64,000 nt of DNA from positions 1 through 64,000 of the forward strand of contig JBAIAA010000664.1 in assembly GCA_037893245.1 (NCBI GenBank), given 5' to 3'. The number at the start of each line of letters is the position of its first letter. Position 1 is the first letter of the stretch. The position numbers and the translations under genes are program-made. Under the pieces are notes generated by a model. The model had not been told where the DNA came from. It made no database searches and was given only the letters and a program-made list of their open reading frames with translations. This DNA comes from Crossaster papposus (Eukaryota > Echinodermata > Asteroidea > Velatida > Solasteridae). Positions 12,755 to 63,150 of this stretch are shown here, piece after piece.

Positions 12755-15700
12755 ATGGGTGCGGCAAAATCCAAAGCAGCCCGTAAACAGACTGATGGCC
12801 CAACCGTAAAACCACAGGAGGCTCCGGTACCTGCCCCCTCTGCTGCAACAGGTCAGTACATAGTAGCTAGTTGCTTAGAGTCAGTGTATAACCTTATTGG
12901 GGAGTGAAGGGGTGTTTATTACCACCCTCCCCCTACCAAAGCAGCCTGTAAACAGACTGATGCCCCAACCGTGATACCACAGGAGGCTCATGTACCTGCC
13001 CCCTCTGCTGCAACAGGTCAGTACGTAGCTAGTTGCTTAGAGTCAGTGTATAACCTTACTGGGGAGTGGAGGGGTGTTTATTACCACCCTCCCCCTCCCC
13101 ACCTCACCAGACGATTTGTTTTTCTGATGATCAGGACACATTTTTTTCTTCTTTTAAAAGTAATATTTTACAAGTACAGACGATCATTAGATCTTGAATC
13201 GAGTACATGCAACATTTTGTCGGCTATTTTATTTAAGGATATTTTATTTCTTGCTTCTGATTTTAGATTCTCCACAACAAACTGGAACCATCGAGAACAT
13301 TGACACAGTCAGTGGTAGCCACAACCCTACCATTGTTGGTCCGAGTGCAGTTCACTTCCCGATGGAGAGACCAGGTAAATACCATGTTTGTTAATGTTAC
13401 AGAAATTGTGAATCAAATGTAGTAGTCTGGGAGCCACAAGTTCGAAAAAAAGCTTATTGTTTTTAGTTAGTTTCACCTGTAAATTGGGAAAGGTTTGGCA
13501 CTTGTACATGGGAGGGGGTTGTCTCTGAAGTATCGGGTGTAAGCATCCAAGGTGGCAGCAAGGTACTTTAATTCACCAATCTCTCAAGTTACCCCCGCCG
13601 TGCTACTCAACTCCCCCAAATGTCTGTTTTGTAGGAAAATTATAGGTAGAATTTAAAAAAAAAAAATTGTACACACCATTTATATTTATATTGAAAAACA
13701 ATATGGTCCAAGGATGGTGTTGTTTCCTATTAGACCAATCCACACGTTAACTTTCTGTCGGCTATCAGAACAGGATTTTGAATGGTAATGATTGGAGGAA
13801 ACAATAAACAGGTGCTTAACAATCGCAATGTTTAGCTCCACAATAATGAACTTTAAATGATCTATTTATAATAGCCGGACATTTTGGGCACACTTTCTAT
13901 TTCTGAGGACATTGACTTTGATGTAATTTTTTATTTTTTTACTCGGCCTATACTTTGTTCCTACAAAAATATAAATTGGGGGATGTGATTAGCTACTTTA
14001 TTTCAGGATATTTTAATTCTTGCTTCTGATTTTAGATTCCCCACAACAAACTGGAACCATCGAGAACATTGACACAGTCGGTGGTAGCCACAACCCTACC
14101 ATTGCTGGTCCAAGTGCAGTTCACTTCCCAATGGGGGGACCAGGTAAATACAATCATGTTTGTTAACATTACAGAAATTGTATATCAAATGTAATAGTCT
14201 GAAAGCCAAGTTCGAAAAGAAGCTTATTTTTAAAGTTCGTTTCACCTTTAAAGGGGAAAGGGTTAGGCACTTGTACATTGGAGGGCGGTGTCTCTGAAGA
14301 ATTATGAGACCGGGTGTAAGCATCCAAGGTGGCAGCAAGGTACTGTAATTCACTAATCTCTCAAGGTATTCCCGCTTTGCTACTCAAATCTCCTAAATGT
14401 CCGTTTTGTAGGAACAAAGTATAGGCTGAGTAAAATTTTTTTTTTAAATGATTGGAGGAAAGTAGGAAACAATAAACAGGTGTTTATACAATCGCAATGT
14501 TCAGCTCCACATTAACGAAATGTGAATGATCTATTCAGATTAGCCGGACATTTTGGGCACACTTATTAAATTTATAAGAAAATTTACTTTGATGTAATTA
14601 TTTTTTGTTTTACTCGGCCTTTTCTTTGTTTCTACAAAATAGAATTTTGGGGATAGCTACTTTATTTAAGGATATTTTAATTCTTGCTTTTGATTTTAGA
14701 TTCCCCACAACAAACTGGAACTCCCGCAAACATTGACATCACAGTCGGTGGTAGCAACAACCCTACCATTGTTGGTGCAAATACAGTTAATATCAATTAC
14801 ATCCAGGGATCAGGTAAAAACAATCATGTTTGTCGAAATTAATATACCCAGCACAATATGAGACAGAGGAACCCCCCCCCCCCCCCTTGGTCCCTCATAC
14901 CTATACACTCTCTAGACAATTGTTACCTAATGCACCTCCCCCCCCCCCCCACAGAGGGACTCCCCCCTTAGTCCCTCATGCCTATACACTCTCTAGACAA
15001 TTGTTAACCCCCCCCCCCTCCATTCCACAAACACAATGACCACTACAAAGAAAGGGGGGGGGGCCTCTGTCTCATATCTTGCTTCATATGAAACCGAAAG
15101 TTTAGCTTGATATCAATTCAAATGTATTTTGGAGGAGTAGGTGGTAAAATACATAAACATTGGACACAACAAAAACTTATGTCAGGTTGCGAGCTAATTA
15201 AGAGTCATCGATTTTCTTTGGTGCAAATATAAGCCAGTTGGATATAATGGTGGACACAATATGAGGGCACTATTTATAGCGATGACGTCTTGGAATTTGT
15301 TCTTTTATGAATCCATGCCAAATAGCGCCCTCTATGTTGCACATTAATTTTGGATTGATGTACGAATGACGTGAATAACGGCACTATTCTGGGAAAAAGA
15401 ATAATCATGATCAATGTGCGTGGTAGTAAAATCCAGTATATTTCACGAGTTTGTAGATTGCCACAGACTTCAACTTATCTTTAATCAGAATTTGAGGAAC
15501 CAGATATGGCTTATTAGGGGTGCACATCCACAAGATGATAAGTTGCTATCATCTCAGTAAGTCTCGGGAGAATGAGGTCCAGTCATTGTTTTGTACACCT
15601 GCAGTTACCAGCTTTTTGTCTGGATTTATTTTTGTTGGTTTTAAAAATGGGAATGTAGTCAATGTACCTTAAGAAAACACTTGACAAGTTTGCATCTAAC

Positions 15701-18149
15701 AACGCTATAGTAGTCAAAACATTTGTATATTATTTACCAAACTTAATTGTGCAGTGTCTTACAGTAGCACCAGAAATCCCAAAGTCATTTTTTGTACATA
15801 CAATTTTGGTTTAGACTAGTCACAATCCTTTTCAGAAACAATCTTTTATTGAAGCAAAATTTGTTCTTGTTTTGGTTTTAAATAGGTATTCCTGCACCAA
15901 TACCTCAGCTTAGTCAGAGACCAGACCAAGAACCAAGGTTGGCGGCTCCTAGCTATCAAGATGTCGGTAACAAGACCAGGGATATTTTGAAGACAGTTTA
16001 TAAAACAACAGGCAGTTACGTGCAGTTGTTGCCTAGCGTTGATAATGACCAGATGCACATAGCTGGCATATACACTAAAGTACAGTTAGAAACACGGGAA
16101 GGGGTAGCAGTTGGCCAGAAAGGAGAAACTGTAAACTCAACAGAGTATGACAAAATATTAACATTAAAGACAAGAAACGGGGAACTTATCAAACACCTCG
16201 TTTTCTATGGTATGGGAGGAGTCGGTAAGTCAACCATTTTTGACAAGATTGTATACGATTGGGCCGAAGGGGTAAGTGAAATCCTGAACAGATTCAAGCT
16301 CGCCTTTCTTTTAAAGATGTGTGCCCTGTCGCAGGAATCTGATTTCGTTAAGTCCTCTTTGGATCAACTTGTAGGCGAAGATTCGGGAATAGCAAATGGT
16401 GAACTTGATCAATTCATCCTGGCCAACCCAAATGAGGTCTTAATTCTTTTGGATGGTTTCGATGAAATGAAGACCAAACCACTCGATGCGGCCTCGTTCG
16501 GTTCTATTTTCAAAGCGCTCAAGAGAACAAAATACCGTGAATGTTTCATATGTGTCTCGACCCGCCCCTCTCATCTTGAGGCACTGATGTCACTTGTCCA
16601 AAATCCTTGCACACACATAGAGGTTCTGGGGTTTACCGACAAGGATGTCAGTGAATACGTTCAGAAATTCTATGACAATGATCCTGATAGCGGCATTGCA
16701 CTAATCCAAACCATCCAAAACTCCAGCACGCTGCGTGATTTTGCTAAGAATCCAATGATATTGATGTTAATGTGTGCATTGTGGAGGGAAAATAAGCAAC
16801 TTCCAGAAACAATTTCACGCCTCTTCACTGAAGCAGTAAATTACATGTTCACAAGAAAAGACAAGAACAGTGAAAGACCCTCAGATGAAAACAAAAGAAC
16901 GCCAGACGAGCCCAACGTATCAGAAACATTGAATGCCATCGGACAAACTGCGCTGCGTGGACTCATGCGTGACAATGACAATTTCTCATTTCAAGAAAAT
17001 GAGTTTGAACCGAATGCACTGAAACTGGCACTGAAAGCAGGCATCCTAACCAAGCAGAGAGTTATCAAAAACCTCAAATCCCACAACAACATACAATTCA
17101 TGCACAAGACCATACAGGAATACTGTGCAGCGAAATACTTGCAGAGTGTGCATATGTCAAACCAGGGATTTGCAAAGCGTACGGTGTTCAAAGTTTTTCC
17201 AATCGGAAAATTTCAAAACAGTTTAAGACAACTTTGTCAGACAATGGAGGGCGTGGTTTCAAACGATTTCCTGTTGCGTTTTTGTTGTGGTGACAATGAG
17301 AAATGTATGGCTGACATCGTAAACTTCCTTGATCGTAAGTTCAATAAGGATGATGATAAGCCAAAGTACCAGTCAGGTGTTATACAAGCGATTAGTCGCA
17401 ACTGCTTATTGGAAAGCCAGGCAAGCAAAGTCCCACAGTGTCTCACTAGCGACTCGCTCATCCCATCAGATATCGTTGTGCGTCACAATAATGATTTCCG
17501 CAGTCTCACATACCTTCTGAAAATCATCTGTGGGTCCGACAACCGCACGGCGCAGCTGGCACGCGTTAAAACTATTGATTTTTTGGCGGTATCTTCGGTC
17601 AGCGATTTAGCCTTCGCCCTGGGTTACATGGAAAACCTCCAGGAATTGACACTTTTCAATTGTACTTTAGTGAAGGGGGATCTTGAGAAAATCATGTCGT
17701 CAATGAAATGCAACCAAAACCTGACCAGTCTTGACTTGAAATCCTGCCATACATTGGGAGGTAAGGCTGTAGAATGGGCCCATCATATCAAACACTTTAC
17801 AAGACTAACAACGCTTCGTATATCTGATTGCGAACTAACGGGGACAGACATTGAGCACATTGCATTGGCTGCACGCGACATCCCCAGACTGACTATCTTG
17901 AACCTTGATGACAACGAGAGATTGGGCGGGTCGGCCGAGTTGTGGGCCAAGGAATTGACGAAAATGAAGCACTTAAATAGGCTGGACCTGAGAGGGTGCG
18001 ATTTGACACCGACAGACATTGAACACATTGCCTTGGCTGTACGTGACATGCCGAGACTGACTAATTTGTATTTAAGTTTCAACCAGCTATTGCATGGATT
18101 AGATGTACAGTCCCGCTTCCCGTCGCTTAGGGTTGACCTTTACTTTTAA
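12755..18149 (+). CDS. NLR-1: myristoylation signal, 3 RHIM-like repeats, NACHT, LRR
   Basis: Predicted exons are 12755-12851, 13267-13374, 14036-14143, 14700-14813 and 15886-18149 (2691 nt, 896 residues). All introns are phase 1 with GT-AG ends. Residues 1-7 read MGAAKSK, a Src-type N-myristoylation signal, in a strong start context (accATGG). Residues 33-142 hold three repeats with a GSxNPTI(V/A)G core, candidate amyloid signalling motifs. The large exon encodes a linker with IAGIYTKVQLE, then a NACHT ATPase: Walker A GMGGVGKST near 251-259, Walker B VLILLDGFDEM near 327-337, sensor STRPSH near 368, NPM near 431. The C-terminus carries ribonuclease-inhibitor-type LRRs of about 28 residues, from about 730 to the end. 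The family senses danger cues and oligomerises on ATP binding. The NACHT exon has no in-frame ATG near its start, which supports upstream exons. Candidate poly(A) signal AATAAA at 18509. Confidence 0.85.
12938..13016 (+). pseudogene. Duplicated partial copy of NLR-1 exon 1
   Basis: A tandem duplication of about 180 bp has copied the end of exon 1 (KQTDAPTVIPQEAHVPAPSA) and its donor site (caacag|gtcagt) but not the ATG and myristoylation signal. The frame is open and the donor phase is 1, so it could be spliced as an extra linker exon if an acceptor such as the AG near 12942 is used. More likely it is a dead exon copy. Confidence 0.65.
13267..14813 (+). repeat. Tandem repeat-exon array of NLR-1 (3 exons)
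   Basis: Three phase 1-1 exons of 108, 108 and 114 bp (13267-13374, 14036-14143, 14700-14813) lie in tandemly duplicated exon-intron units of about 769 and 664 bp. The first two encode the 'A' type (NPTIVGPSAVHFPM, with NPTIAG in the second). The third, next to the NACHT exon, encodes the 'B' type (NNPTIVGANTVNINY). Flanking intron sequence is duplicated with each exon. Confidence 0.85.
14840..15090. mobile_element. MITE with poly-C/poly-G arms in the last NLR-1 intron
   Basis: The inverted ends 'atatgagacagagg' (near 14856) and 'cctctgtctcatat' (near 15064) bracket long C runs and G runs plus 'tatacactctctagacaatt' repeats. The same insertion is present at the same intron position in NLR-2 (37730-37990) and NLR-3 (59790-60000), so it predates the gene duplications. 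A partial inverted copy lies at 52690-52835. Confidence 0.6.
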
Positions 18150-21370: not shown

Positions 21371-21379
21371 CGTGGTCTG

Positions 21380-21779: not shown

Positions 21780-23830
21780 AAGGGAAATTATTAATTTACA
21801 TTTACATGTTTTTAATTTACGGTAATCACATACACGTACTTGTAAAAAAGGAAAGTTGTAACCTGATTGGGTGGTCGTATTAATTACATTCTACTTCCAC
21901 AGGTTAAAATACATGTACGTGTATCTCACAATTGTTGTGCCAATTATAATCTATTATATTGCTTTCAACATAAACACTAGTTTTAACTTGTAAATACAAA
22001 CTGGAATTGGAGGTCGTTATATGTTGCAACGCATAAGCAAATCGCAACAAAATAATCCCCACGCACTTTGCAATATTTTCTCCACGTGCAGATATGTTAA
22101 TTTTGGGTCACGTAATTTTGGGAGTGGGTATAAATATTTGTAACAACAATAGGACGTTTTTTCATCTACATAACCAGAGCATTAAAAAGGTAGAGGCTGG
22201 GGGTTCATAAACACACGCACGCACGCACACAAGAAAATAACATCAATTTATTTGGACGTCAACAACTAACTCTCGAAAATTGGAACATAAAATTACAATT
22301 TTGAAGGTGCAGTGCTTACAACAACAGCTCGCCAAGACAACAGTTTAGAGGGCCGTTATTCAGGAAATTGCAGTGAGTATTAAGAAGCATAGCCTATAAT
22401 AGTTATAGTTTCGCAGCCCAAACTTTGTTCAACTTGGGTTTTTTTACGTTGGGGACATGTTGGAACTACCGTACGTGTGGAGACAATCTGTGCACAAACC
22501 TAGGCTATATATTGAACCAAATTGTAACTTTCTTGTGATTGTGAATGCTTGCTTATTGTACATTAAGAATTGAGCGATAAATTGATGCGTGTATTTGTTA
22601 CTGATATGTATTTTTTTAAAGTCATTTCTTAAAGGGATCGTATACGTTTGGTAATTGGAACCCATTGTTTGTTCCACTCTATAGTTATAGATATATATAC
22701 CATAAAACTAACCTGTACAAATTTCATTTCAAAAGGTGGTTGCGATTTTGAGATATTGCCGAAAATCTGGAGCGGTTATGTTCACGCAGGAATAATAATC
22801 TGCTTTGCAATACACAGTCTGAGAAACGTCACTGTACTGTAGTAATGCTTCTCAGACTCAAATTTTTGGGGATAAAAAGTGATATCTTTTCCCATAACCG
22901 CCGTACTTCGAAGTGAAAAGTTTATAAAAATGCGTTATATTATCCAAAGCTGCTGTACTTCTTACCAAGTAAGTTTTTATTGCCATTAATTTTTGGAGTC
23001 ACTACCAAACGTATACGATCCCTTTATTGTCCGATGATGATCACAATGAAGACACTATTATTGGGAGCCACTTTTAGACGCAATGTAACCTTCCAAATCG
23101 ACCAATCAGGATACTAACCAATCACATCTGTTCCTCTGGGTATAATGAATGGGCCTACCTGAAAATACATTTCAATATCTTCTTTTATTTCAAAAATAAA
23201 ACAAAACACTGAGTTTTAATTACAATATATGTTTCTCATAATTTTATAATATTCAATGCTTTAATAAGTGATCAGATAGTTTGAGAAATATTGGAATAAT
23301 TAATTAAAAGCATGACTGATTCACTATCTCCATAGGATTGGTGCATGAACTACATTGGTTGTCTGTCATTCATACCCTAGATGCAATATCGATCATATTT
23401 ACTAATAATCCCAAATGTTTAGACTATGCTTGCCTTGCCTGGTTATTGGTGTGTTAACCAAATCTGCTGAAAGCATGTTCACACTTAATACTTGCTTACT
23501 ATATTATTGGCTTGATAAGATTCTAATTGGGGAAAATCGGATCTCACGTGGCGACGAATTAAGTCTGTTTTTACCCCAGTGTTTACACCGCACACAAAAA
23601 CAAACTTCTTTGAAGCAAACCAAAGTATCGACTGTACCGTGTGTGTGTTTGGGGGGGGGGGGGGGGGGTTTCGTTTTGGCTTCGGATCAGCTGAAGGAGA
23701 TTATTAGACCATGATGTAATATCCGTTGGAAATTAAGACTGCCAACTTGTGGAATCTTCTGGCGTATTTTGATGTCAATCAAGTGTAAAGTCAAAACTGC
23801 AGTCTGTGTCTTGCAGTAGCTAATATGCCG
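21780..23830 (+). repeat. Gene-less NLR unit 1 (beta 1)
   Basis: The unit contains NLR 3'-flank sequence (from 21780), then block alpha-like 5' flank ('gaaggtgcagtgcttacaac' near 22302) ending with the segment that immediately precedes NLR exon 1 ('cataggattggtgcatgaac', near 23330). Instead of exon 1 and the gene there are about 300 bp (23420-23710) and then 3'-flank sequence starts again. Short ORFs inside (22444-22677, 22648-22842, 23415-23714) show no domain. Confidence 0.7.
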
Positions 23831-25895
23831 GGATTGGCTTTTTAATTAAGGCCTTTCAGTTAAAATGAAATTAATAATTTATATTTACATGTTTTTCATT
23901 TACGGTAATCACATACATTGTACTTCTAAAAAGGGAAAGTTATAACCTGATTGGGTAGACGTATTAATTACATTCTACTTCCACAGGTTAAAATACATGT
24001 ATGTGTATCTCACAATTGTTGTGCCAATTAGAATCTATTATATTGCTTTCAACAAAAACACTAGTTTAATTTGTAAATAAACTGGAATTGGAGGTTGTAA
24101 TATGATGCAACGCATAAGCAAATCGCAACAAAATAACCCCAACGCACTTTGCAATATTTTCTCCCCGTGCAGATATGTTAATTTTGGACCACCGAATTTT
24201 GGGAGTGGGTATTAATATTTGTAACAACAATAGGGCGTTTTTTCATCTACACAACAAGAGCATTGAAAAGGTAGAGGCTTGGGGGTTCATAAACACACCC
24301 TGTATGCGCACGCACACCAGGAAATAACATCAATTTATTTGGACGTCAACAACTAACTCTCGAAAATTGGAACATAAAATTACAATTTTGAAGGTGCAGT
24401 GCTTACAACAACAGCTCGCCAAGACAACAGTTTAGAGGGCCGTTATTCAGGAAATTGCAGTGAGTATTAAGAAGCATAGCCTATAATAGTTATAGTTTCG
24501 CAGCCCAAACTTTGTTCAATTTTTTTTTTACGTTGGGGACATGTTGGAACTACCGTACGTGTGGAGACAATCTGTGCACAAACCTAGGCTATATATTGAA
24601 CCAAATTGTAACTTTCTTGTGATTGTGAATGCTTCCTTATTAGACATTAAGAATTGAGCGATAATCTCTTCCTAAATTGATGCGTGTATTTTTTACTGAT
24701 ATGTATTTTTGTAAAGTCATTTCTTAAAGGGATCGTATACGTTTGGTAATTGGAACCCATTGTTTGTTTCAATCTATAGTTATAGATATATATACCATAA
24801 AACTAACCTGTAAAAATTTCATTTCAAAAGGTGGTTGCGATTTTGAGATATTGCCGAAAATCTGGAGCGGTTGTTCACGCAGGAATAATAATCTGCTTTG
24901 GAATACACAGTCTGAGAAACGTCACTGTAGTATACGCTTCTCAGACTCAAATTTTTGGGGATAAAAAGTGATATCTTTTTCCATAACCGCCGTACTTCGA
25001 AGTGAAAAGTTTCTAAAAATGCGTTATATTATATTATCCTGTACTTCTTACCAAGTAAGTTTTTATTGCCAATAATTTTTGGAGTCATTACCAAACGTAT
25101 ACGATCCCTTTATTGTCCGATGATGATCACAATGAAGACACTATTATTGGGAGCCACTTTTAGACGCAATGTAACCTTCCACATCGACCAATCAGGATAC
25201 TAACCAATCACATCTGTTCCTCTGGGTATAATGAATGGGCCTACCTGAAAATACATTTCAATATTATCTTCTTTTATTTCAAAAATAAAACAAAACACTG
25301 AGTTTTAATTACAATATATGTTTCTCATAATTTCATAATATTCAATGCTTTAATAAGTGATCAGATAGTTTGAGAAATATTGGAATAATTAATTAAAAGC
25401 ATGACTGATTCACTGTCTCCATAGGATTGGTGCATGAACTGCATTGGTTGTCTGTCATTCATACCCTTGATGCAATATCGATCATATTTACTAATAATCC
25501 CAAATGTTTAGACTATGCTTGCTTTGCCTGGTTATAAATGTGTTAACCAAATCTGCTGAAAGCATGTTCACACTTAATACTTGCTTACTTTATTGGCTTG
25601 ATAAGATTCTAATTGGGTAAAATCGGATCTCACGTGGCGACGAATTAAGTCTGTTTTTACCCCAGTGTTTACACCGCATACAAAAACAAACTTATTTGAA
25701 GCAAACCAAAGTATCGACTGTACCGTGTGTGTGTTTGGGGGTGGGGGGGTGGTTTCGTTTTGGCTTCGGATCAGCTGAAGGAGCTTATTAGACCATGATG
25801 TAATATCCGTTGAAAATGAAGACTACCAACTTGTGGAATCTTCTGGCGTATTTTGATGTCAATCAAGTGTAATGTCAAAACTGCAGTCTGTGTCT
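23831..25895 (+). repeat. Gene-less NLR unit 2 (beta 2)
   Basis: A tandem copy of beta 1 about 2.07 kb further on, highly similar throughout ('gggatcgtatacgtttggta' at 22634 and 24727; 'aatcggatctcacgtggcg' at 23536 and 25621). No NLR exon is present. A poly-G tract lies at 25736-25752. Confidence 0.75.
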
Positions 25896-34920: not shown

Positions 34921-37910
34921 ATGGATGCGGCAAAATCCAAGGCAGCCCGTAAACAGACTGATGCCCCAACCGTGATACCTCAGGAGGCACCGGTACCTGC
35001 CCCCTCTGCTGCAACAGGTCAGTACATAGTAGCCAGTTGCTTAGAGTCAGTGTAATAAACTCACTGGGGAGTGGAGGGCGGGTGTTTATTACCACCCTCC
35101 CCTCCCCACCCTCCCTCTCCCCACAATCATGTTTGTTAACATTAAAGACATTGTTTATCAAATGTAATAGTCTGGAAGCCAAGTATGAGTTCGTTTCACC
35201 TGTAATGGGAAAAAGGTTTGGCACTTGTACATGGGAGGGGGGTGTCTTAGAAGTATTATGAGGTCGGGTGTAAGCATCCAAGGTGGCAGTAAGGTACAAT
35301 GTGATTCACCAATCTCTCCAGGTACCCCTGCCTTGCTACTCACATCCCCCAAATGTCTGTTTTGTAGGAACAAAGTATAGGCAGAGTAAAAAACAAAAAA
35401 TGTACACACCATTTATGTTTCTATTGAAAAACAATGGTCCAAGGATGGTGTTGTTTCCCATCAGACCAATCCACATGTTGACTTTCTCTCGGCTATCAGA
35501 ACGGGATTTGGAATGGTAATGATTGAAGGAAACAATAAACAGGTGCTTATACAATCGCAATGTTTAGCTCCACAGTAATGAAATCTATATGATCTATTTT
35601 GAATAGCCGGAAATTTTGGGCACACTTATTCTATTTCTGAGGAAATTGACTTTGATGTAATTTTTTTTACTCGGCCTATACTTTATTTGTTAAAGGTAGT
35701 ATACACCATTTGCAGATATCGAAAATATTTACTACCGAATTATTAGAAAATATCTTACTCATTTGAAAGTAAATAATGATTTTAGGCATCCAGTAAAATT
35801 ATCGGCTAGATATCCTGTAATTATTCCGAAAAAATTAATTTTATAATGCAAAATTCGCGATCGCCAGACGGCGATCGCCAAAAAACACAAATTACATAAG
35901 AATAACTGCTCGACGCCGGTTGAAAAAAACCCCGCTGTTTTTCGTGCTTTTCTGGGCATTCATGATTGTAAAACTTAGGACAGGTTAGTTAAACGATTAT
36001 TTACTATAAAATACAACCCCCCAAATCTACCCATTCATGATATTCAAGCAATTACCAATGGTGTATACTACCTTTAATACAAAAATAGAAATTTGGGGGA
36101 CGTGATTAGCTATTTTATTTGAGGATATTTTAATTCTTGCTTCTGATTTTAGATTCCCCACAACAAACTGGAACCATCGAGAACATTGACACAGTCAGTG
36201 GTAGCCACAACTCTACCATTGTTGGTCCAAGTGCAGATCACTTCCCAATGGAGGGACCAGGTAAATACAATCATGTTTGTTAACGTTAAAGAAATTAAAT
36301 ATCAAATGTAATAGTCTGGAAGCCAAGTTCGAAAAGAAGCCTATTTTTTTAGTTCGTTCACCTGTAAAGGGGAAAAACGTTTGGCACTTGTACTTGGAAG
36401 GGGGGGGGGGGGGTGTCTCTGGAGTATTATGAGACCCAGTGTAAGCATCCAAGGTGGCAGCAAGGTACTGTAATTCACCAATCTCTCAAGGTACCCCCGC
36501 CTTGCTACTCACGTCCCTAAAGTGTCTGTTTTGTAGGAACAAAGAAATGACACGCCGTTTATGTTTCTATTGAAAAACAATGGTCCAAGGATGGTGTTGT
36601 TTCCCATCAGACTAATTCACATGTTAACTTTCTCCCGGCTATCAGAACGGGATTTTGAATGGTACTGATTGGAAGATAACAATAAACAGGTGCTTATACA
36701 ATCGCAATGTTTAGCTCCACAATAATAACATTTATATGATCTATTCTGAATAGCCGGAAATTTTGGGCACACTTATTCTATTGACTTTAATTGAATTGAC
36801 TTTAATTGATTTTTTTTTTTTTACTCGGCCTATACTTTATTTGTTTCTACAAAAATAGAAATTTGGGGGATGTGATTAGCTATTTTATTTAAAGATATTT
36901 TAATTCTTGCTTCTGATTTTAGATTCCCTACAACAAACTGGAACCATCCAGAACATTGACACAGTCAGTGGTAGCCACAACTCTACCATTGTTGGTCCAA
37001 GTGCAGATCACTTCCCAATGGAGGGACCAGGTAAATACAATGTTTGTTAACATTAAAGATATTGTGAATCAAACATAATAGTCTGAAAGCCAAGTTCGAA
37101 AAGAAGCTTATTTTTTTAGTTCATTTCACCAGTAAAGGGGAAAAGGTTTGGCACTTATACATGGGAGGGCGGTGTCTCTGAAGTATTTTGAGACCGGGTG
37201 TAAGCATCCAAGGTGGCAGCAAGGTACTGTAATTCACCAATCTCTCAAGGTATTCCCGCTTTGCTACTCAAATCCCCTAAATGTCCGTTTTGTAGGAACA
37301 AAATATATAGGCTGAGTAAAAAAAATTGTTTTTAAATGATTGGAGGAAACAATAAACAGGTGTTTATACAATCGCAATGTTTAGCTCCACAATAATGAAA
37401 TTTAAATTATCTATTCAGAATAGCAGGACATTTTGGGCACACTTATTCTATTTATGAGGACATTGACTTTGATGTAATTTTTAATTTTTTTACTCAGCCC
37501 ATAAATTTGTTCCTACAAAAATAGAAATTGGAGGATTTGATTAGTTACTTTATTAACGGATATTTTAATTCTTGTTTCTGATTTTAGAATCCCCACAACG
37601 AACTGGATACATCGGAAACACTGGCACAGTCAGTGGTAGCCACAACCCTATCATTGTTGGTGCAAATACAGTTAATTTCAATTGCATCCAGGGATCAGGT
37701 AAAAACAATCATGTTTGTCGAAATTAATATACCCAGCACAATATGAGACAGAGGAACTCCCCCCCCCCCCCCCCCCCCCCCCCCCCACCAGTCCCCCAAT
37801 CCATACACTCTCTAGACTATAGTTACCTAATAAGGCATCCTCCCCCAACCATGTAAAAGGAATTCCTAAGAAACCACAACATTTCACAAACACAATGACT
37901 ATACTACAAG

Positions 37911-37942
<32 letters not shown>

Positions 37943-40900
37943 GTAGGAGAGTAAGGGGGTTCCTTTAGTCTTATATCTTGCTTCATGTGAAAACTAAAGT
38001 ATAGCTTGATATCAATTCAAATGTATTTTGGAGAAGTAGGTGGTAAACCACATAAACATGGACACAACAAAAACTTATGTCAGTTTGCGAGTTTGGTGCA
38101 AATATAAGCTAGTTCGATATGCTGGACACAATATGAGGGCGGTATTTATAGTGGTGACGTCTTAGAATTTGTTCCTTTATGAATCCATGTCAAATAGGGC
38201 CCTCTACGTGTACCACTTCAGAAAAAGGCCAAGTCGTACATTAATTTGGGATTTATGCACGAATGACATGAATAAAGGCACTATTGTGGGGAAATTAATC
38301 AATAATCGAGATAAATGTGCGTGGTGGTAAAAGCCACGTACATTGGACGGACTTTAACTTATCTTTAATCAGAATTTGAGGAACCATGCTTATTTGGGGG
38401 TGTACAACCACAATATGATAAGTTGCTATCATCTCAGTAAGTCTTGGGAGAATGAGGTCCAGTCATTTTAGTTGGTACACCTGCAGTTACCATCTTTTTG
38501 TTTGGATTTACTTTTGTTGGTTTTAAAAATGGGAATGTACTTTAAGAAAACACTTGACAAGTTTGCATCTAACAACGCTATAGTTGTCAAAACATTTATA
38601 TATTATTTACCAAACTTATTTGTGACACGATCAAGCGGAATGAGTCGGATGTCGGCCCCGGTCAAAAAATGAGTTTTCATGTAGTTTTAAAGAGGGCATC
38701 TGTACGTTTTAAAAACCGAAAACCCCATGTTGATACGATGTTTTGTTGTTGAGTTATGTAAATTTGTTTAAATACCAACGAAGAACACAGTTCATTTTTG
38801 GAATTCCCCGACATCTGACTCATTCTGCTTGATCGTGTCACATTTGTGCAGTGTCTTACCAGAAATCCCAAAGTCATTTCTTGTACTTACAATTTTCTTC
38901 TAGACTAGTCACAATCCATTTTAGAAACAATGCATTATTGGAGCAAACCTTTTTTCTTGTTTTGGTTTTAAATAGTTATTCCTGCACCGATACCTCAGCT
39001 TAGTCAGAGACCAGACCAAGAACCAAGGTTGGCGGCTCCTAGCTACCAAGATGCCGGTAACACGACCAGGGATATTTTAAAGAGAGTTTATAAAACAACA
39101 GGCAGTTACGTGCAGTTGTTGCGTTGCGTTGACAATGACCAGAAGCACATAGCTGGCATATACACTAAAGTACAGTTAGAAACACGGGAAGGGGTAGCAG
39201 TTGTCACTGGCCAGGAAGGAGAAACTGTAAACTGTATGACAAAATATTAACATTAAATACAAGAACTGGGGAACTTATCAAACACCTCGTTTACTGTGGT
39301 ATTTCACAGTGCACAAGCTGGCAGTCGTGTGAACAGCTTTTTATTTTGTTTACAAACACTGAACTTCACAGCCCACAAAAATGCTCGAATAGCAGAGAAA
39401 TTGAGTGCACACAAACGGTGATTTGGCCTGCGCAGGCAATTTTTGACCGATACAGTCTACAACCTTTTCTCTACCTACTACCCACGCAAAATAGCACTTT
39501 GTATTATCTGCCACACCTGGATTAAAATGCAAATAAGTTTGCATTTGTGCTTAAATGAAAGAAATAATGCGAATGTTATTGAAAACAATTTATTCTTTGT
39601 TGATAAACTGAGCTGTTTAGCAAAGCCTATTTTTTTCCGAGTTCATAGATAGCAAGTGACTTCAACTTTATCTCCAATCAGAATTGAAGGAACAGATTTG
39701 TCTTTTTTTTGTGGTGAATACCACCCCCCCCCCCCCCCCCTCCAAAAAAAAAGAAGATTATTACCTCATTTTTGAATTTATTTTTGTTGATGTAAAAATT
39801 GATTGTACTATGAAGCAATATTTGCATACAAAAAGAAGTGCTGGGTCGGATCATTCCTTTTTTTCTCTTTTGACAAATTTATTTTCTACCTTGCCTTTGA
39901 CATTCAAAATAGTCATAATTTCCTTGCCATGTCTTTCTCTGTAGAGGAAGATTGTTTAATCCATTTTAGAAACTTTGTTTTATTGAAGCAAAACATGTTG
40001 CTTGTTTTGATCTGAATAGGAGTGCCTGCACCTCAACATAGTCTGAGACAAGACCAAGAACCAAGGTTGGAGGCTCCTAGCTACCAAGAGGCTGGTAACA
40101 AGACTAGGGACATTTTGGTGAAAAGGTACCAGACTACGCGCAGTTATCTTCAGTTGAACCCTGGGATTCCTGATGATCAAAGACCCATCGTTGGCATTTA
40201 CACTAAACTGCAGATTAGAACAAAGAAAGGTACTGTAGAAGAAAGATACACCGACGACATTGTATATTCAACCGATTATGACGCAATATTCAAACATTGG
40301 TACGATTGCAATCGTCTTATTTTAATTGGCCTAGGCGGTGTGGGGAAGTCTACCATATTTGATAAGATTGTATTGGACTGGGCCAACAGGGTAAGCGAAA
40401 TCCTGAATAGATTCAAGCTTGTCTTCCTTTTAAAGATGTGTGCCCTGTCGCAGGAATCTGATCTCGTTGATTCCTCTTTCGATCAACTTGTAGGCGAAAA
40501 GTCAGGAGTAGACAAAAAAGAACTTGATAAATTCATCCTGGCCAACTCAAATGAGGTCTTGATTCTTTTGGATGGTTTTGACGAAATGAAGACCGAAACA
40601 CTCGATGCAGCCTCATTCGGTTCTGTCCTCAAAGCACTCAAAAGAACAGTATACAGGGAATGTTTCATCTGTGTCTCAACCCGCCCCTCTCATCTTGAGA
40701 CACTGACATCAAAACTCGTCCAAAATCCTTGCACACACGTAGAGGTTCTGGGGTTTACCGACGAGGATGTCAGTGAATACGTTCAGAAATTCTATGACAA
40801 TGATCCTGATAGTGGCAATGCACTAATCCAAACCATTGGAAAGTCCAACACGCTGCGTGATTTTGCTAAAAATCCAATGTTACTGTTGCTTATGAATTTG

Positions 40901-42232
40901 TTGTGGAGGAAGAATAAACAACTCCCAGAAACAACTTCACGTCTCTTCAATGAGGCAGTTAATTACATGTTCACAAGAAAAGGGGATATCTGCGACGAAG
41001 ATGCTTCAAAAACAGTGATTGCAATAGGAAAAACTGCGCTGCTCGGACTCATGAATGCCAACCAGAAATTCTCATTTCAAGAAGATGATTTTGAACCGAA
41101 TGCACTGAACCTGGCACTAAAAGCAGGCATCCTAACCAAGCAGAGAGTTATCAAAAACCTCAAATCACACAATGACATACAATTCATGCACAAGACAATA
41201 CAGGAATACTCTGCAGCGAAATACTTGCAGAGTGTACATGTGTCGAACCTGGGATTTGTAAAGCGTACGGTGTTCAAAGTTGTTCCATTCAGAAAATTTC
41301 AAAACAGTTTAAGACAACTTGGTCAGACAATAGAGGGCGTGGTTTCAAACGATTTCCTGTTGCGTTTTTGTTGTGGTGACAATGAGAAATGTATGACTGA
41401 CATTGTAAACTTCCTTGATCGTAAGTTCAATAAGGATGATGATAAGCCACAGTACCAGTCAGATGTTATACAAGCGATTAGTCGCAACTGCTTATTGGAA
41501 AGCCAGGCAAGCAAAGTCCCACAGTGTCTCAACAGTGACTCACTCATCCCATCAGATATCGATGTGCGTAACTATACTGATTTCCGCAGTCTCATATACC
41601 TTCTGAAAATCATCTGTAAATCCGACAACCGCACGGCGCAGCTGGCACGCGTTAAAACTATTCAGGTGGTTTCGGTGTCTTCGGTCAGCGATTTAGCCTT
41701 CGCTCTGGGTTACATGGAAAACCTCTGGAAACTGACACTTATCAAGTGTAATTCAGTGGAGGGAGATTTTGAGAAAATCATGTCGTCAATGAAATGCAAC
41801 CAACACCTGACCAGTCTTGTCTTACTGGATTGCTATACAATGGGAAGTAGAGCTGTAGAATGGGCCCCTAATATCCGACACTTGACAAGTCTGACAACGC
41901 TTTGTATATCTGGTTGCGAACTAACGGGGACAGACATTGAGCAAATTGCCTCGGGTGCACGCGACATCCCCAGACTGACTGACTTGGGCCTTCATGGCAA
42001 CAAAAGATTGGGCGGATCGGCCGAGTTGTGGGCCAAGGAATTGCCGAAAATGAAGCACTTAAATAAGCTGGACCTGAGCTGGTGCGATTTGGCACCGACA
42101 GACATTGAACACATTGCCTATGCTGCCCGTGACATGCCCAGACTGACTAATTTTCATTTAGGTGACAACAAGCTATTGCATGGATTAGATGTGCAGTCCC
42201 ACTTTCCGTCGCTTAGAGTTCACCTCGCTTAG
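34921..42232 (+). CDS. NLR-2: N-terminal signal with Gly2 lost, 3 RHIM-like repeats, NACHT, LRR
   Basis: Predicted exons are 34921-35017, 36153-36260, 36923-37030, 37588-37698 and 40020-42232 (2637 nt, 878 residues), phase 1 throughout. The N-terminus reads MDAAKSK where paralogues have MG, so it cannot be N-myristoylated. Three repeats follow (about residues 33-141). The first two carry NSTIVGPSADHFPM and the third NPIIVGANTVNFN. The big exon starts GVPAPQHSLRQ and encodes a NACHT with Walker A GLGGVGKST near 255-263, Walker B VLILLDGFDEM, STRPSH, then RI-type LRRs ending HFPSLRVHLA. The region between the linker and Walker A is more diverged than in NLR-1 and NLR-3. The last intron (2.3 kb) contains a broken duplicate NACHT exon. 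A TTAA MITE sits in intron 1, where one repeat exon seems to have been deleted. Candidate AATAAA at 42576. Confidence 0.8.
35690..36077. mobile_element. TTAA MITE, piggyBac-type (copy 6) in NLR-2 intron 1
   Basis: TTAA at 35690-35693 and 36074-36077, TIRs 'aggtagtatacacc' and 'ggtgtatactacct', interior palindrome 'gcgatcgccagacggcgatc'. The homologous intron positions at about 36840 and 59570 lack it. This copy best shows the TTAA duplication. Confidence 0.85.
36153..37698 (+). repeat. Tandem repeat-exon array of NLR-2 (3 exons)
   Basis: Exons 36153-36260 and 36923-37030 (108 bp, A type) and 37588-37698 (111 bp, B type) are spaced 770 and 665 bp apart, the same spacings as in NLR-1. The two A exons are almost identical to each other, with an Asn-to-Ser-type change to NSTIVG and Val-to-Asp to SADHF shared by both, which points to local duplication or conversion within NLR-2. 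Confidence 0.85.
37730..37990. mobile_element. MITE with poly-C/poly-G arms in the last NLR-2 intron
   Basis: Orthologous in position to 14840-15090 in NLR-1. The C run at about 37758-37787 and the G run at about 37915-37943 are unusually long. The ends 'atatgagacagagg' and 'cttatatcttgcttcat' match the NLR-1 copy. Confidence 0.6.
38976..39303 (+). pseudogene. Truncated NACHT-exon copy inside NLR-2 last intron
   Basis: The segment matches the 5' part of the NLR large exon (IPAPIPQLSQRPDQEP, then KTTGSYVQLL and IAGIYTKVQLE) more closely to NLR-1 and NLR-3 than to NLR-2's own exon. A 7-bp deletion near 39232 shifts the frame to a stop at 39248-39250, and homology ends near 39303, just before Walker A. 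The acceptor is intact (aatag) but the first exon base is T instead of G. It cannot encode a NACHT. It could yield a short isoform if spliced. Confidence 0.8.
39304..40019. other. Rest of NLR-2 last intron, no gene
   Basis: AT-rich with a poly-C run at 39724-39740. It ends in an intron 3' end like those of the paralogues ('gaagcaaaac', 'cttgttttgatctgaatag'). Short ORFs have no domain. Confidence 0.5.
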
Positions 42233-50675: not shown

Positions 50676-50684
50676 TCCAATGTT

Positions 50685-52835: not shown

Positions 52836-52919
52836 TCGTGAAAGTTACTTTTAGTTGCCCGTTATAGCAGAACATTCAACCTACGTCACAACAACAGTAA
52901 ACAACGTTTGTAATACACG

Positions 52920-54290
52920 GTGTCTGCATTATTTCCTCCCCGGGCAGATATGTTAATTTTAGGTCACCGTAATTTTGGGAGTGGGTATAAATATTTGTAA
53001 CAACAATAGGTTGTTTTTTTCATTGACACAACCAGAGCATTGAAAAGGTAGAGGCTGGGGGTTCATATCACACCTTGTATGCGCACGCACACCAGGAAAT
53101 AACATCAATTTATTTGGACGTCAACAACTAACTCTCAAAAATTGGAACATAAAATTACAATTTTGAAGGTGCAGTGCTCACAACAACAGCTCGCCAAGAC
53201 AACAGTTTAGAGGGCCGCTATTCAGGAAATTGCAGTGAGTAATAAGAAGCATAGCCTATAATAGTTATAGTTTCGCAGCCCAAACTTTGTTCAACTTGTT
53301 GTTTTTTTACGTTGGGGACATGTTGGAACTACCGTACGTGTGGAGACAATCTGTGCACAAACCTAGGCTATATATTGAACCAAATTGTAACTTTCTTGTG
53401 ATTGTGAATGCTTCCTTATTGTACATTTAGAATTGAGCGATAATCTCTTCCTAAATTGATGCGTGTATTTTTTACTGATATGTATTTTTTAAAGTCATAT
53501 TTTAAATGTCCGATGATGATCAGAATGAAGACATTATTGGGAGCCACTTTTTGACAAAATGTAACCTTTCAAATCGACCAATCAGGATACTAACCAATCA
53601 CATCTGTTCCTCTGGGTATAATGAATAGCCCACCTGAAAATACAATTCAATATTATCTTCTTTTATTTCAAAAATGAAAAAAACCACTGAATTCTAATTA
53701 CAATATATGTTTCTTATAATTTCATAATATTCAATGCTTTAATAAGTGATCAGTTAGTTTGAGAAATATTGGAATAATTAATTAAAAGCATGACTGATTC
53801 ACTGTCTCCATAGGATTGGTGCATGAACTACGTTGGTTGTCTGTCATTCATACCCTTGATGCAATATCGATCATATTTACTAATAATCTCAAATGTTAAG
53901 ACTGCTTGCCTTGCCTGGTTATTTGTGTTAACCAAATCTGCTGAAAGCATGTTTACACTTGATACTTGCTTACTATATTCGCTTGATAAGATTCTAATTG
54001 GGGAAAATCGGATCTCACGTGGCGACGAATTAAGTCTGTTTTTACCCTAGTGTTTACACCGCATACACAAACAAACTTCTTTGAAGCAAACCCAGGTACC
54101 GAATGTGGACATGTGTGGGTGGGGGGGGGGGGGGGGGGGGTGATTGGTTTCGAAACCCTAGCTTCGTTTTGGCTTCGGATCACCTGAAGGAGATTGTTAA
54201 ACCATGATGTAATATCCGTTGCAAATTAAGACTACCAACTTGTGGAATCTTCTGGCGTATTTTGATGTCAATCAAGTGTAATGTCAAAAC
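52920..54290 (+). repeat. Gene-less NLR unit 4 (beta 4)
   Basis: Same order as beta 1-3: alpha-like 5' flank ('aaggtgcagtgctcacaac' near 53166), the exon-1-proximal segment near 53810, then about 330 bp without NLR exons, then 3' flank ('ttctggcgtattttgatgtc' near 54248). A poly-G tract lies at 54120-54140. Confidence 0.7.
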
Positions 54291-55089
54291 TGCAGTCTGT
54301 GTCTGGCAGTAGCTAATATGTCAGGATTGGATTTTTAATTAAGACCTTTCAGTTAAAAGAAAATTGATAGTTTACATTTACATGTTTTTCATTTACGGTA
54401 ATCACATACATTGTACTTGTGAAAAAGAAAAGTTATAACCTGATTGGGTAGACGTAATAATTCCATTCTACTTCCACATGTTAAAATACATGTATGTGTA
54501 TCTCACAATTGTTGTGCCAATTATAATCTATTATATTGCTTTCAACATAAACACTAGTTTTAACTTGTAAATACAAACTGGAATTGGAGGTAAATATGAT
54601 GCAACGCACAAGCAAATCGCAACAAAATAATCCCAACGCACTTTGCATTATTTCCTCCCCGGGCAGATATGTTAATTTTGGACCACCGTAATTTTGGGAG
54701 TGGGTATTAATATTTGTAACAACAATAGGGCGTTTTTTCATCTACACAACCAGAGCATTGAAAAGGTAGAGGCTGGGGGTTCATAAACACACCTTGTATG
54801 CGCACGCACACCAGGAAATAACATCAATTTATTTGGACATCCGAACAACTAACTCTCGAAAATTGGAACATAAAATTACAATTTTGAAGGTGCAGCGCTC
54901 ACAACAACAGCTCGCTAAGACAACAGTTTAGAGGGCCGTTATTCAGGAAATTGCAGTGAGTAATAAGAAGCATAGCATATAATTACTTATAGTTTCGCAG
55001 CCCAAACTTTGTCAGACTTTTACGTTGGGGACATGCATGTTGGAAGTAGGCCTACGTGTGGAGTCGATCTGTACACAAACCTATGCTGT
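54291..55089 (+). repeat. Gene-less NLR unit 5, truncated (beta 5)
   Basis: Counterpart of beta 3 (25896-26679). It is truncated at the same point by the same inverted MITE, so the beta 2-beta 3 pair and the beta 4-beta 5 pair descend from one segment. Confidence 0.75.
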
Positions 55090-58573: not shown

Positions 58574-61500
58574 ATGGGTGCGTTAAAATCTAAAGCAGCC
58601 AGTAAACAGACTGATGCCCCACAGGAGGCTCCGGTACCTGCCCCCTCTGCTGCAACAGGTCAGTACATAGTAGCATAGTTGCTTAGAGTCAGTGTATAAA
58701 CTCACTGGGAAGTGGAGGGGTGTTTATTACCACCCTTCCCCTCCCCCTCCCCACCCTCCCCCCTCCCCACCCTCCCTAAGTACAGACGATAATTAGATCT
58801 TGAATCGAGTACATGCAACATTTTGTCAGCTATTTTATTTAAGGATATTTTAATTCTTGCTTCTGATTTTAGATTCCCCACAACAAACTGGAACCATCGA
58901 GAACATTGACACAGTCAGTGGTAGCCACAACCCTACCATTGTTGGTCCAAGTGCAGTTCACTTCCCAATGGGGGGACCAGGTAAATACAATCATGTTTGT
59001 TAACATAAAAGACATTGTGTATCAGATGTATTAGTGTGGGAGCCAAGTTCGAAAAGAAGCTTATTTTTTAGTTCGTTTCACCTGTAAAGTGGAAAAGGTT
59101 TGGCACTTGTACATGGGAGGGGGGTGTCTCTGAAGTATTATGAGACCGGGTGTAAGCATCCAAGGTGGCAGCAAGGTACTGTAATTCACCAATCTCTCAA
59201 TGTACCCCCGCCTTGCTACTAACATTCCCCAAATGTCTGTTTTGTAGGAACAAAGTATAGGCCGAGTAAAAAAACAAAAAGGTACACACCATTTAAAAAA
59301 CAATGGTCCAAGGATGGTGTTCTTTCCCATTAGACAAATCCACACGTTAACTTTTTCTCGGCTATAAGAATGGGATTTGGAATGGTAATGATTGGAGAAA
59401 ACAATAAACAGGTGCTTATTTAATCGCAATATTTAGCTCCACAATATTGAAATTTGAATGATCTATTCAAAATAGCCAAAATATTTTAGTCACACTTATT
59501 CAATTTCTGAGGACATTGACTTTGATGTAATTTTGTTTTGTTTACTCGGCCTACACTTTATTATTTCTACAAAAATAGAAATTAGACGATGTGATTATAT
59601 AGCTATTTTATTTAAGGATATTTTAATTCTTGCTTCTGATTTTAGAATTCCCACAACGAACTGGAACCTCCGCAAACATTGGCATCACAGTCAGTGGTAG
59701 CAACAACCCTGTCATTGTTGGTGCAAATACAGTTAATATCACTTACAACAAGGGACCAGGTAAAAACAATCATGTTTGTCAAAATCAATATGCCCAGCAC
59801 AATATGAGACAGAGGAACCCCCCCCCCCCCCCCCTTAGTCCCCCATACCTATACACTCTCTAGACTATTGTTACCTAACGCACACCACATGTAACAAAAA
59901 CTCGAAGAAAACTACAACATTCCACAAACACAATGACCACCACAAAGGGGGGGGGGGGGGATGTTTCTTTCTCGTATCTCCCTTCATATGAAAATGAAAG
60001 TATAGCTTTATATCAATTCAATTGTATTTTTATTTTTTTATTTTTTTTGGTTAACCACATAAATATTGACACAACAAAAACTTGTCAGTTTGCGAGCTAA
60101 TTAAAAGTCATCAATTTTCTTTGGTGTAAATAGCCAGTTGGACATATGGACACAATATGAGGGCGGTATTTATAGTGGTGATGACGTCTTAGAATTTGCC
60201 CTCTGTGTACCACTTCTGAAAAGGGTTAAGTAGTACATTAATTTTGGATTGATTCACAAATGACATGAATAAACGGCACTATTGTGGGGAAAATAATAAA
60301 TAATCATGATAAATGTGCGTGGTGGTAAAAGCCAGTATATTTTACGAGTTTGTACATTGCGACAGACTTCAACTTATCTTTAATCAGAATTTGAGGAACC
60401 AGATATGGCTTATTTGGGGTGCAACCACAAGATGATAAGTTGCTTTCATCCCAGTAAGTCTTGGGAGAATGAGGTCCAGTCATTTTTTTGTACACCTGCA
60501 AATACCAGCTTTTTGTCTGGATTTAGTCTTGTTGGTATGTACTTTAGGAAAACACACAAGTTTACATCTAACAGCGCTATAGTTGCCAAAACATTTATAT
60601 ATTATTTAACAAACTTATTTGTGCAGTGTCTCACAGTAGCGCCAGAAATCCCAAAGTCATTTCTTTTACATACAATTTTCTTCTAGACTACTAGTCGCAA
60701 TCCATTTCAGAAACAATGTATTACTGAAGCAACACCTTTTCTTGTTTTGGTTTTAAATAGGTATTCCTGCACCAATACCTAAGCTTAGTCAGACACCAGA
60801 CCAAGAACCAAGGTTGGCGACTCCTAGCTACCAAGATGTCGGTAACAAGACCAGGGATATGTTGAAGAGAGTTTATAAAACAACAGGCAGTTACGTGCAG
60901 TTGTTGCCTGACGTTGATAATGACCAGAAGCACATAGCTGGCATATACACTAAAGTACAGTTAGAAACACGGGAAGGGATAGCAGTTGTCACTGACCAGA
61001 AAGGAGAAACAGTAAACTCAACACAGTATGACAAAATATTCAGATTAAGGACAATAACTGGGGAACTTATCAAACGCCTCGTTTTTTGGGGTGTGGGAGG
61101 GGTCGGTAAGTCAACCATTTTTGACAAGATTGTATACGATTGGGCCGATGAAGTAAGCGAAATTCTGAACGGATTCAAGCTCGTCTTCCTTTTAAAGATG
61201 TGTGCCCTGTCGCAGGAATCTGATCTCGTTGATTCCTCTTTCAATCAGCTTCTAGACGAAGATTCGCGAATAGCAAATGATGACCTTGATACATTCATCC
61301 TGGCCCACCCAAATGAGGTCTTGATTCTTTTGGATGGTTTCGATGAAATGAAGACCAAACCACTCGATGCGGCCTCATTCGGTTCTATCTTGAAAGCGCT
61401 TAATAGAACAAAATACCGCGAATGTTTTATATGTGTCTCAACCCGCCCCTCTCATCTTGAGGCACTGACGTCAAAATCACTTGTCCAAAATCCTTGTACA

Positions 61501-63150
61501 CACGTAGAGGTTCTGGGGTTTACCGACGAAGATGTCAGTAAATACATTAAGAAATTCTATGACAAGGATCCTGATAGTGGCAATGCACTAATCCAAACCA
61601 TTGGAATGTCCAGCACGCTGCGTGATTTGGCTAAGAATCCAATGATGTTGGTATTAATGTGCGCATTGTGGAGAGAAAATAATAAACTTCCAGAAACAAT
61701 TTCACGCCTCTTCACTGAAGCAATAAATTACATGTTCACAAGAAAAGACAAGAACAGTGAAATACCCTCAGATGCCAACAAAAGAGAGCCAGACGAGCCC
61801 AACGTATCAGAAACATTGAATGCCATAGGAAAAACTGCGCTGCGTGGACTCATGCGTGACAATGACAGTTTATCTTTTCCAGAAGATGAGTTTGAACCGA
61901 ATGCACTGAAGCTGGCACTAAAAGCAGGCATCCTGACCATGCAGAGAGTTATCAAAAACCTCAAATCCAACAATAACATACAATTCACGCACAAGACTAT
62001 GCAGGAATACTGTGCAGCGAAATACTTGCAAAGTTTAGAAGATGGCGAATTTCAGAGCATTTTAAGTAAATTGTACTTAACGATTGATGATGTTGTTTCA
62101 AACGATTTCCTGTTGCGTTTTTGTTGTGGTGACAATGAGAAATGTATGGCAGACATCGTAAACTTCCTTGATCGTAAGTTCAATAAGAACGATACGCCAC
62201 AGTACCAGTCATGTGTTATACAAGCGATTAGTCGCAACTGCTTATTGGAAAGCCAGGCAAGCAAAGTCCCACAGTGTCTCACCAGCGACTCGCTTATCCC
62301 ATCCGATATCCATGTGCGTAACAATAATAACTTCCGCAGTCTCACATACCTTCTGAAAATCATCTGTGGGTCCGACAACCGCACGGCGCAGCTGGCATGC
62401 GTTGAAAATATTCGTGTGGATTCGGTGTCTTCAGTCAGCGATTTAGCCTTCGCCCTGGGTTACATGGAAAACTTCCGGGAACTGAGACTTTTCAGTTGTA
62501 TTTTAGTGGAGGGTGATCTTGAGAAAATCATGTCGTCAATGAAATGCAACCAACACCTGACCAGTCTTAAATTAACACTCTGCCATACAATGGGAGGTAG
62601 AGCTGTAGAATGGGCCCCTCATATCCGACACTTGACAAGTCTGACAACACTTCACATACTTGATTGCGAACTAACTGGGACAGACATTGAACACATTGCC
62701 TCGGCTGCACGTGACATGCCCACACTGACCAAACTGGACCTTGGCAGCAACCAGAGATTGGGCGGATCGGCCAAGTTGTGGGCCAAGGAATTGCCAAAAG
62801 TGATGCACTTAAATGGGCTGGGCCTTCGCTGGTGCGATTTGACACCGACAGACATTAAGCACATTGCCTCGGCTGCATGTGACATGCCCAGACTGACTAA
62901 CTTGGTCCTTGCTATCAACCAGAGATTGGGCGGATCGGCCAAGTTGTGGGCCAAGGAATTGCCGAAAATGATGCACTTAAATACGCTGAACCTGCGCTGG
63001 TGCGGATTGACACCGACAGACATTAAGCACATTGCCTCGGCTGCACGTGACATGCCCAGACTGACTGATTTGTATTTAAGTTCCAACGAGCTATTGCGTG
63101 GATTAGATATGCAGCCCCGCTTCCCGTCGCTTAGGCTTCACATCGCTTAA
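58574..63150 (+). CDS. NLR-3: myristoylation signal, 2 RHIM-like repeats, NACHT, expanded LRR
   Basis: Predicted exons are 58574-58658, 58873-58980, 59646-59759 and 60761-63150 (2697 nt, 898 residues), phase 1 throughout. The N-terminus is MGALKSKAASK, a good N-myristoylation signal; exon 1 is 12 bp shorter than in the paralogues. Two repeats (about residues 29-102) are one A type (NPTIVGPSAVHFPM) and one B type (NNPVIVGANTVNITY). The NACHT has Walker A GVGGVGKST near 213-221, Walker B VLILLDGFDEM, STRPSH and NPM. About 20 residues are missing after the conserved QEYCAAKYLQS segment. The LRR region has one extra pair of ~28-residue repeats, visible as two tandem LGGSAKLWAKELPK blocks. It ends FPSLRLHIA. 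This is the cleanest of the three genes. The equivalent poly(A) hexamer has changed to AATAGA. Confidence 0.85.
58873..59759 (+). repeat. Repeat-exon array of NLR-3 (2 exons)
   Basis: Exons 58873-58980 (108 bp, A type) and 59646-59759 (114 bp, B type). One A-type unit fewer than NLR-1 and NLR-2. Exon boundaries and phases are identical to those of the paralogues. Confidence 0.85.
59790..60000. mobile_element. MITE with poly-C/poly-G arms in the last NLR-3 intron
   Basis: Same intron position and ends as in NLR-1 and NLR-2. C run at about 59818-59834, G run at about 59947-59960. Confidence 0.6.

Follow-up and report, generated by a model that had tools for sequence, protein, structure and literature searches.

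PP, RHIM, and BASS motifs, death-fold pairs of caspases and nucleotide-binding, leucine-rich repeat receptors (NLRs), and effector-associated domains (EADs) are described in the available sections of PMC7889193, PMC12261475, PMC7885112, PMC11508797, PMC12119088, and PMC8195603. In fungal NLR/effector pairs (PNT1-HELLP and NWD2-HET-S), the short N-terminal motif of the NLR is repeated on the executioner (PMC7889193). In inflammasomes of the CARD, PYD, or Death type, one homotypic N-terminal module is common to the NLR and the caspase (PMC11508797). The EADs of Kaur et al. occur as one copy on a STAND NTPase and another on an effector, e.g., a caspase (PMC8195603). According to the sections available from PMC12119088, no RIPK1 homologs were found in echinoderms. 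Here we describe three NLR genes of the sea star Crossaster papposus. They lie in a window of 64,000 nucleotides, the whole stretch that was analyzed (contig C664, positions 1-64000). Each contains repeated small exons, which probably encode a short homotypic signaling motif that couples sea star NLRs to caspases.

A motif shared by NLRs and caspases

The motif takes up about 36 residues per exon and reads ..VSGS(H/N)NPxIVG... It is encoded by small phase-1 exons. Its layout covers about 28 to 30 residues and consists of a beta-prone stretch, an SGSxNP turn, IxVG, and then a VxIxFN-like stretch. Two types of repeat were present in the window. Type A contains 36 residues and occurs in five copies. 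Type B contains 37 to 38 residues and occurs in three copies, in every gene as the copy adjoining the NACHT exon. A reading made from the sequence alone (the sequence-only reading) had given GS(H/N)NPxIVG as the core. This is exact in five of the eight repeats and does not hold for the other three, one of which has IAG and two of which have NS for NP.

The motif was also retrieved in front of caspases. A P. miniata-style motif query (Patiria miniata being another sea star) matched 128 places in the C. papposus genome at E up to 10, and a part of these was inspected individually. One of them was C261:532591-532674 (E 1.9e-5). There is no NACHT match on C261 among the matches listed. The motif exon encodes GYYIGNSGTVSGSNCPIIVGSSGLTLNFNTPEPVLPA; like the motif exons of the NLRs, it is phase 1-1 and bounded by AG and GT. 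On the same strand, about 1.7 kb past it, a further exon joins in phase and leads to p20 caspase exons with SHG and QACRG. These pieces matched Peptidase_C14 at 5.5e-28. Farther on, the p10 and C-terminal caspase parts are represented on that strand by sequence matches at 523091-523222 and 518246-518374.

A motif-plus-caspase query against the protein collection retrieved four proteins at E up to 0.001 among 126 candidates, all of them P. miniata caspases. Two of the four carry the motif upstream of the protease, twice in P0055 and once in P0056. No death-fold domain was found in P0055 to P0058. A motif profile built from 21 NLR motifs, with no caspase included, gave whole-protein scores of 38.2 bits for the C261 caspase, 35.0 bits for P0055, and 29.8 bits for P0056. 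The individual copies of P0055 scored 18.7 and 20.4 bits, and the best of 1,500 shuffles scored 5.8 bits. The caspase scores are far above chance despite the motif-led discovery. The best pairwise alignment of P0055 with the NLR P0004 was over the motif region (E 8e-4). In the reverse direction, a genome search with the P0056 motif (E up to 10) yielded 25 places, with E values of 0.016 to 3.1. Each of these values is weak by itself; the weight lies in all 25 being already among the 128 motif places, with the C261 caspase included.

The presence of the motif in C261, P0055, and P0056 is as expected of a motif leading from NLR to effector, and it upholds the earlier proposal of an N-terminal signaling module. 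Because the motif is common to NLRs and caspases in two species, a pairing of receptor and protease is suggested, in which the two would find each other through this common tag.

A third type of carrier was retrieved by a search for motif proteins of about 210 to 670 residues. It gave five matches at E up to 10 among 7219 candidates, namely, four NACHT proteins and P0054 (E 1.5). P0054 (Patiria miniata LOC119733290) is not a NACHT protein. It starts with MGNLWSRF, followed by the motif, to which the NLR profile gives 50.1 bits, and its body has no Pfam match above the cut-off. Its significant similarity to the NLR P0004 is confined to the motif (E 8e-9). Such a protein gives some support to a common third partner, meaning that the motifs of NLR and caspase both bind another protein or scaffold and not each other. 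Tandem copies are seen on both the receptor (window genes) and the caspase (P0055), and these fit self-stacking more simply. We consider a third partner unlikely.

Architecture of the window genes

The window contains three tandem NLR paralogs on the + strand, and all features below are on that strand. Between exon 1 and the NACHT-LRR exon there are three motif exons in gene 1, three in gene 2, and two in gene 3. A single NACHT-LRR exon closes each gene. Every exon is joined to the next in phase 1, with AG/GT at the boundaries, and the models are open in frame up to the stop codon. The sequence-only reading had proposed this arrangement of three paralogs, and it was confirmed by reading all three models in frame. 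The gene 1 and gene 3 models were scanned with Pfam. They matched NACHT with 81 and 77.5 bits (cut-off, 26.7) and contained leucine-rich repeat (LRR) models over the cut-off, as in metazoan NLRs.

Gene 1 contains 897 codons including the stop. Exon 1 (12755..12851) encodes MGAAKSKAARKQTDG..PSAAT, in which Gly2 and Ser6-Lys7 fit a predicted N-myristoylation signal. The first type A motif exon (13267..13374, phase 1-1) encodes DSPQQTGTIENIDTVSGSHNPTIVGPSAVHFPMERP. The second (14036..14143) has the core ..GSHNPTIAG. The type B motif exon (14700..14813), which adjoins the NACHT exon, encodes DSPQQTGTPANIDITVGGSNNPTIVGANTVNINYIQGS. The NACHT-LRR exon with the stop codon is at 15886..18149 (NACHT, 1.1e-22). 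Exon 1 is followed, ahead of the first motif exon, by a start-less second exon-1-like copy at 12935-13015. A unit similar to this copy is repeated many times within the P. miniata protein P0028.

Gene 2 begins with exon 1 at 34921..35017. Its two type A motif exons (36153..36260 and 36923..37030) both have the core GSHNSTIVG. The type B motif exon is at 37588..37698, and the NACHT-LRR exon with the stop codon is at 40020..42232. The NACHT exon is 73% identical to that of gene 1 over query residues 3-326. By visual reading, the 5' part of the NACHT exon recurs as a broken duplicate at 38976..39290 (end approximate), a copy that belongs to repeat family D8.

Gene 3 contains 899 codons including the stop. 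Exon 1 (58574..58658) encodes MGALKSKAASKQTDA.., the type A motif exon is at 58873..58980, and the type B motif exon (59646..59759) encodes EFPQRTGTSANIGITVSGSNNPVIVGANTVNITYNKGP. The NACHT-LRR exon with the stop codon is at 60761..63150 (NACHT, 1.4e-21).

Other repeats were present in the window. A 17-base array in a GC-rich stretch at 50093-50761 yields long artifact reading frames on both strands. A 20-base array is at 32745-34305. A repeat of about 2.09 kb occurs in several copies between the NLR genes, at 21879-26618 and 53069-55025.

Exon 1 and the predicted myristoylation signal

We take the N-myristoylation consensus to be Met-Gly with a small or polar residue at position 6. Genes 1 and 3 fit it and gene 2 does not. 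The start MGA(A/L)KSK, which had been read as shared by all three paralogs, is present in genes 1 and 3. Gene 2 reads ATGGAT (MDAAKSK..) and so lacks the myristoylation glycine. Nine exon-1 copies were retrieved by the fixed start context GTACCATGG; five start with MG..SK, one with MD..SK, and three with MDEQ. Among the 26 P. miniata motif NLR records, an MGxxxSK start is present in two (P0003 and P0021). In P0009, P0016, and P0017, the MG start falls inside the motif itself, and the remaining records mostly start with MQ, MA, or MD. With such mixed starts, myristoylation is a predicted trait of some members and not of the family, and the earlier claim of a shared signal is narrowed to these members.

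Exon-1-like matches also occur in groups elsewhere in the genome. C237:321313-323095 contains an array of 17, all on one strand and for the most part spaced by 106 bases. C867 contains seven beside motif exons.

Copies in the genome and in other sea stars

The 1.02-Gb assembly contains at least 100 NACHT matches. At least 35 places, the three in the window included, share 69% or higher identity with gene 1 across query residues 15-326 or more, and 3 of these places contain one stop. A 39-residue type B motif query matched 105 places at E up to 10, a recurrence beyond chance. We collected 40 distinct motif-exon sequences with open frames and intact boundaries; both features were required by the filter, so they are no test.

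Motif copies on C315, C536, C591, C441, C208, and C7 were considered as parts of other effectors. This was rejected, since five of the six stretches read there were broken NLR frames. One locus, L069, contains motif exons and no other NLR-type frame of 100 residues or more. Some of these decayed motif-NLR copies (L069-L074, on C441, C315, C536, C591, C208, and C7) have retroelement-like frames by visual reading.

The closest proteins to the window NLRs are P. miniata NLRs, with 56 to 67% identity for the top five. NLRs of Acanthaster and Asterias are further down the match list. The motif profile matches 26 P. miniata NLR records, and the motif is thus common to two sea stars. Twelve of these records and the caspases P0055-P0057 give an identical length, 28,613,699, for their longest contig. 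It was not found among the NLRs retrieved from Acanthaster planci and Asterias amurensis. Two lookalikes were rejected because they did not score above the best shuffles with the motif profile. One is the stretch ..ISGSGNVPTINPTG.. in a second sea star NLR clade (P0036-P0038). The other is in Asterias (P0026 and P0031).

Known families and the N-terminal slot

The sequence-only reading had called the repeats RHIM-like, and this was not borne out. The RHIM profile (PF12721) gave three matches over the genome (E 3.5-9.75), all under the cut-off and none at a motif exon. It matched 0 of 14 motif sequences. RHIM membership was rejected on these results. The motif could still be taken for a true RHIM from which the glutamine of the tetrad is gone. 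Its IxVG, with N/T-rich residues after it, is reminiscent of the V/I-Q-V/I-G tetrad given in the available text of PMC12119088, and P0055 contains ISVG. No Gln occurs at that position in any of the 14 aligned motifs, the nearest to (V/I)Q(V/I)G being ISVG and IIVG; the absence of the Gln from the core had been noted correctly. The motif profile matched no PDB chain at E up to 10, and together with the failed profile searches this makes a true RHIM extremely improbable.

Other collections gave little. Pfam returned one weak DUF match for the 14 motif sequences and, for the first 151 residues encoded by gene 1, only Candida_ALS at E 2.2. The motif had two weak single-member matches in NCBIfam (E 0.06-0.1) and none in PADLOC. 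The gene 1 and gene 3 models contain no Pfam match to CARD, PYD, DED, Death, or RHIM. The motif stands in their N-terminal signaling slot with no such domain there, which agrees with the earlier reading.

In related NLRs this slot contains a Death domain. P. miniata P0022 is 60% identical to gene 1 and has no motif. It has a Death domain at residues 30-106, before NACHT, with an exon-1-like start ahead of this domain and the usual linker behind it. Acanthaster P0011 and P0025 contain two Death stretches each. No death-fold match was found in P0003, P0004, P0021, or P0024. Since the module swaps with a Death domain in receptors and precedes a caspase, it is best read as a putative adaptor, standing where related NLRs carry the Death domain.

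This position also bears on an integrated decoy. In that case, the NLRs would have copied a caspase prodomain exon, which would serve to lure pathogen proteins directed against it. Phase 1-1 exons shuffle easily, and the genome has many places with motif and NLR but few caspase matches of the C261 type. The motif nevertheless fills the N-terminal adaptor slot and is not an extra added domain. A decoy appears quite improbable.

Conservation, selection, and points against the proposed coupling

Between-species identity was calculated for genes 1 and 3, with the type A repeats omitted, against 13 hand-picked records of the 26 from P. miniata. The motif core was 67% identical and its flanks 49 to 51%. 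Identity was 62% in exon 1 and 65% in the linker, compared with 67% for the stretch preceding the P-loop and 75% for the P-loop stretch itself.

Aggregation hot spots were scanned in nine N-terminal stretches, including window genes 1 and 3, with an aggregation-propensity scale. Except for GAVVS in P0003, every hot spot fell within a motif. They were present in the type B and P. miniata motifs. The motif is plausible, if not demonstrable, as a beta/amyloid motif.

Several observations weigh against the coupling of NLRs and caspases by this motif. The C261 splice from motif to protease is modeled, and the first exon of this caspase was not found within 526900-535800 (8.9 kb). P0057 and P0058 are caspases without the motif, perhaps as their models start late. 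Motif-bearing caspases come from two species only. C747:465004-466236 contains matches to a second caspase of the C261 type, and no motif place is listed on its contig among the 128. C261 was found via the motif and the caspase protein query contained it, so these finds are not independent of the motif. Use of the exon is supported at the level of public P. miniata gene models. On the receptor side, tandem copies were absent from the 26 NLR records of P. miniata. The type A copies, five of the eight in the window, lack the final VxIxF-like strand, and the aggregation scale placed no hot spots in the three that genes 1 and 3 contain. Type A copies may thus act as weaker partners, or as different ones. 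In conservation, the core stands only slightly above exon 1 and the linker. Pooled ratios of nonsynonymous to synonymous substitution (dN/dS), which rest on few substitutions, were 0.84 across the 14 paralogous exons of type A and 1.64 across the 10 of type B. For six exons of decayed loci the ratio was 0.48, opposite to the expectation from constraint. No purifying selection among paralogous motif exons is shown by dN/dS.

The sequence-only reading had named a dN/dS near 1, with no conservation of the core across species, as evidence against itself. One half of this was found, in the paralogs (0.84 and 1.64); the other was not, as the core exceeds its flanks between species. These ratios near or above 1, the existence of decayed copies, and the near match of exon 1 and the linker to the core would all suit a flexible, low-constraint linker, spread by exon duplication and with no function of its own. 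Such a linker leaves the conservation of the core above its own flanks, equal to the stretch before the P-loop, less easily explained. The same core was also found again in caspases and in P0054. A linker without function is very unlikely.

Proposed mechanism

From these sequences we infer a pathway of homotypic binding, beta or amyloid stacking, and caspase activation, with myristoylation in some members. A ligand would be sensed by the LRRs, and the NACHT domain would then oligomerize. This would cluster the motif copies, of which there are two or three per window receptor and one per P. miniata NLR record. The cluster would capture caspases that bear one or two copies of the motif before the protease. 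Proximity would activate the caspase and lead to cell death or cytokine processing. In the paralogs that start with MG, myristate would put the assembly at the membrane. Motif copies would most likely pair with one another in a beta stack, much as RHIM and fungal PP motifs do.

A stronger form of this proposal can be put forward tentatively. It describes a sea star NLR-caspase death pathway in which exon-coded, often tandem motifs on partly membrane-tethered NLRs might template the caspase motif. The motif would then be a new animal signaling amyloid that replaces CARD, DED, or Death. This form is possible, and we hold it with some doubt.

Comparison with described systems

Neither the sea star motif nor such an NLR-caspase system was found in the available text of the literature surveyed, which was mostly open-access articles with few subscription papers or preprints. 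The motif on an expanded animal NLR family and on caspases is a concrete candidate with named, testable partners (P0055, P0056, and the P. miniata motif NLRs). If the coupling is true, an animal caspase could be recruited by a route that needs no death-fold domain.

The EADs differ in being folded domains (Death-like and TRADD-N) in the sections available from PMC8195603. Neither RHIM nor "short motif" appears as a term in that text. Compared with inflammasomes of the CARD, PYD, or Death type, the sea star module has about 30 residues, has no death-fold match, and is not a six-helix bundle. No CARD, PYD, DED, or Death domain was found on the motif NLRs (genes 1 and 3) or on P0055-P0058, which sets them apart from death-fold inflammasomes.

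RHIM (RIPK1, RIPK3, TRIF, and ZBP1) and RHIM-like motifs are similar in their short glycine-containing core, beta-prone residues, and metazoan cell death. The sea star motif differs from them in having no Gln tetrad and no Pfam RHIM match. Fungal amyloid motifs have no sequence family match to it. The fungal PP, HRAM, and sigma amyloid pairs differ further in that here the host is an animal, the executioner is a caspase, and the caspase motif, a putative amyloid, is N-terminal. They are like the sea star proteins in carrying a short motif on both the NLR and the executioner, and the same short motif on NLR and effector is a mark of the amyloid signaling motif class.

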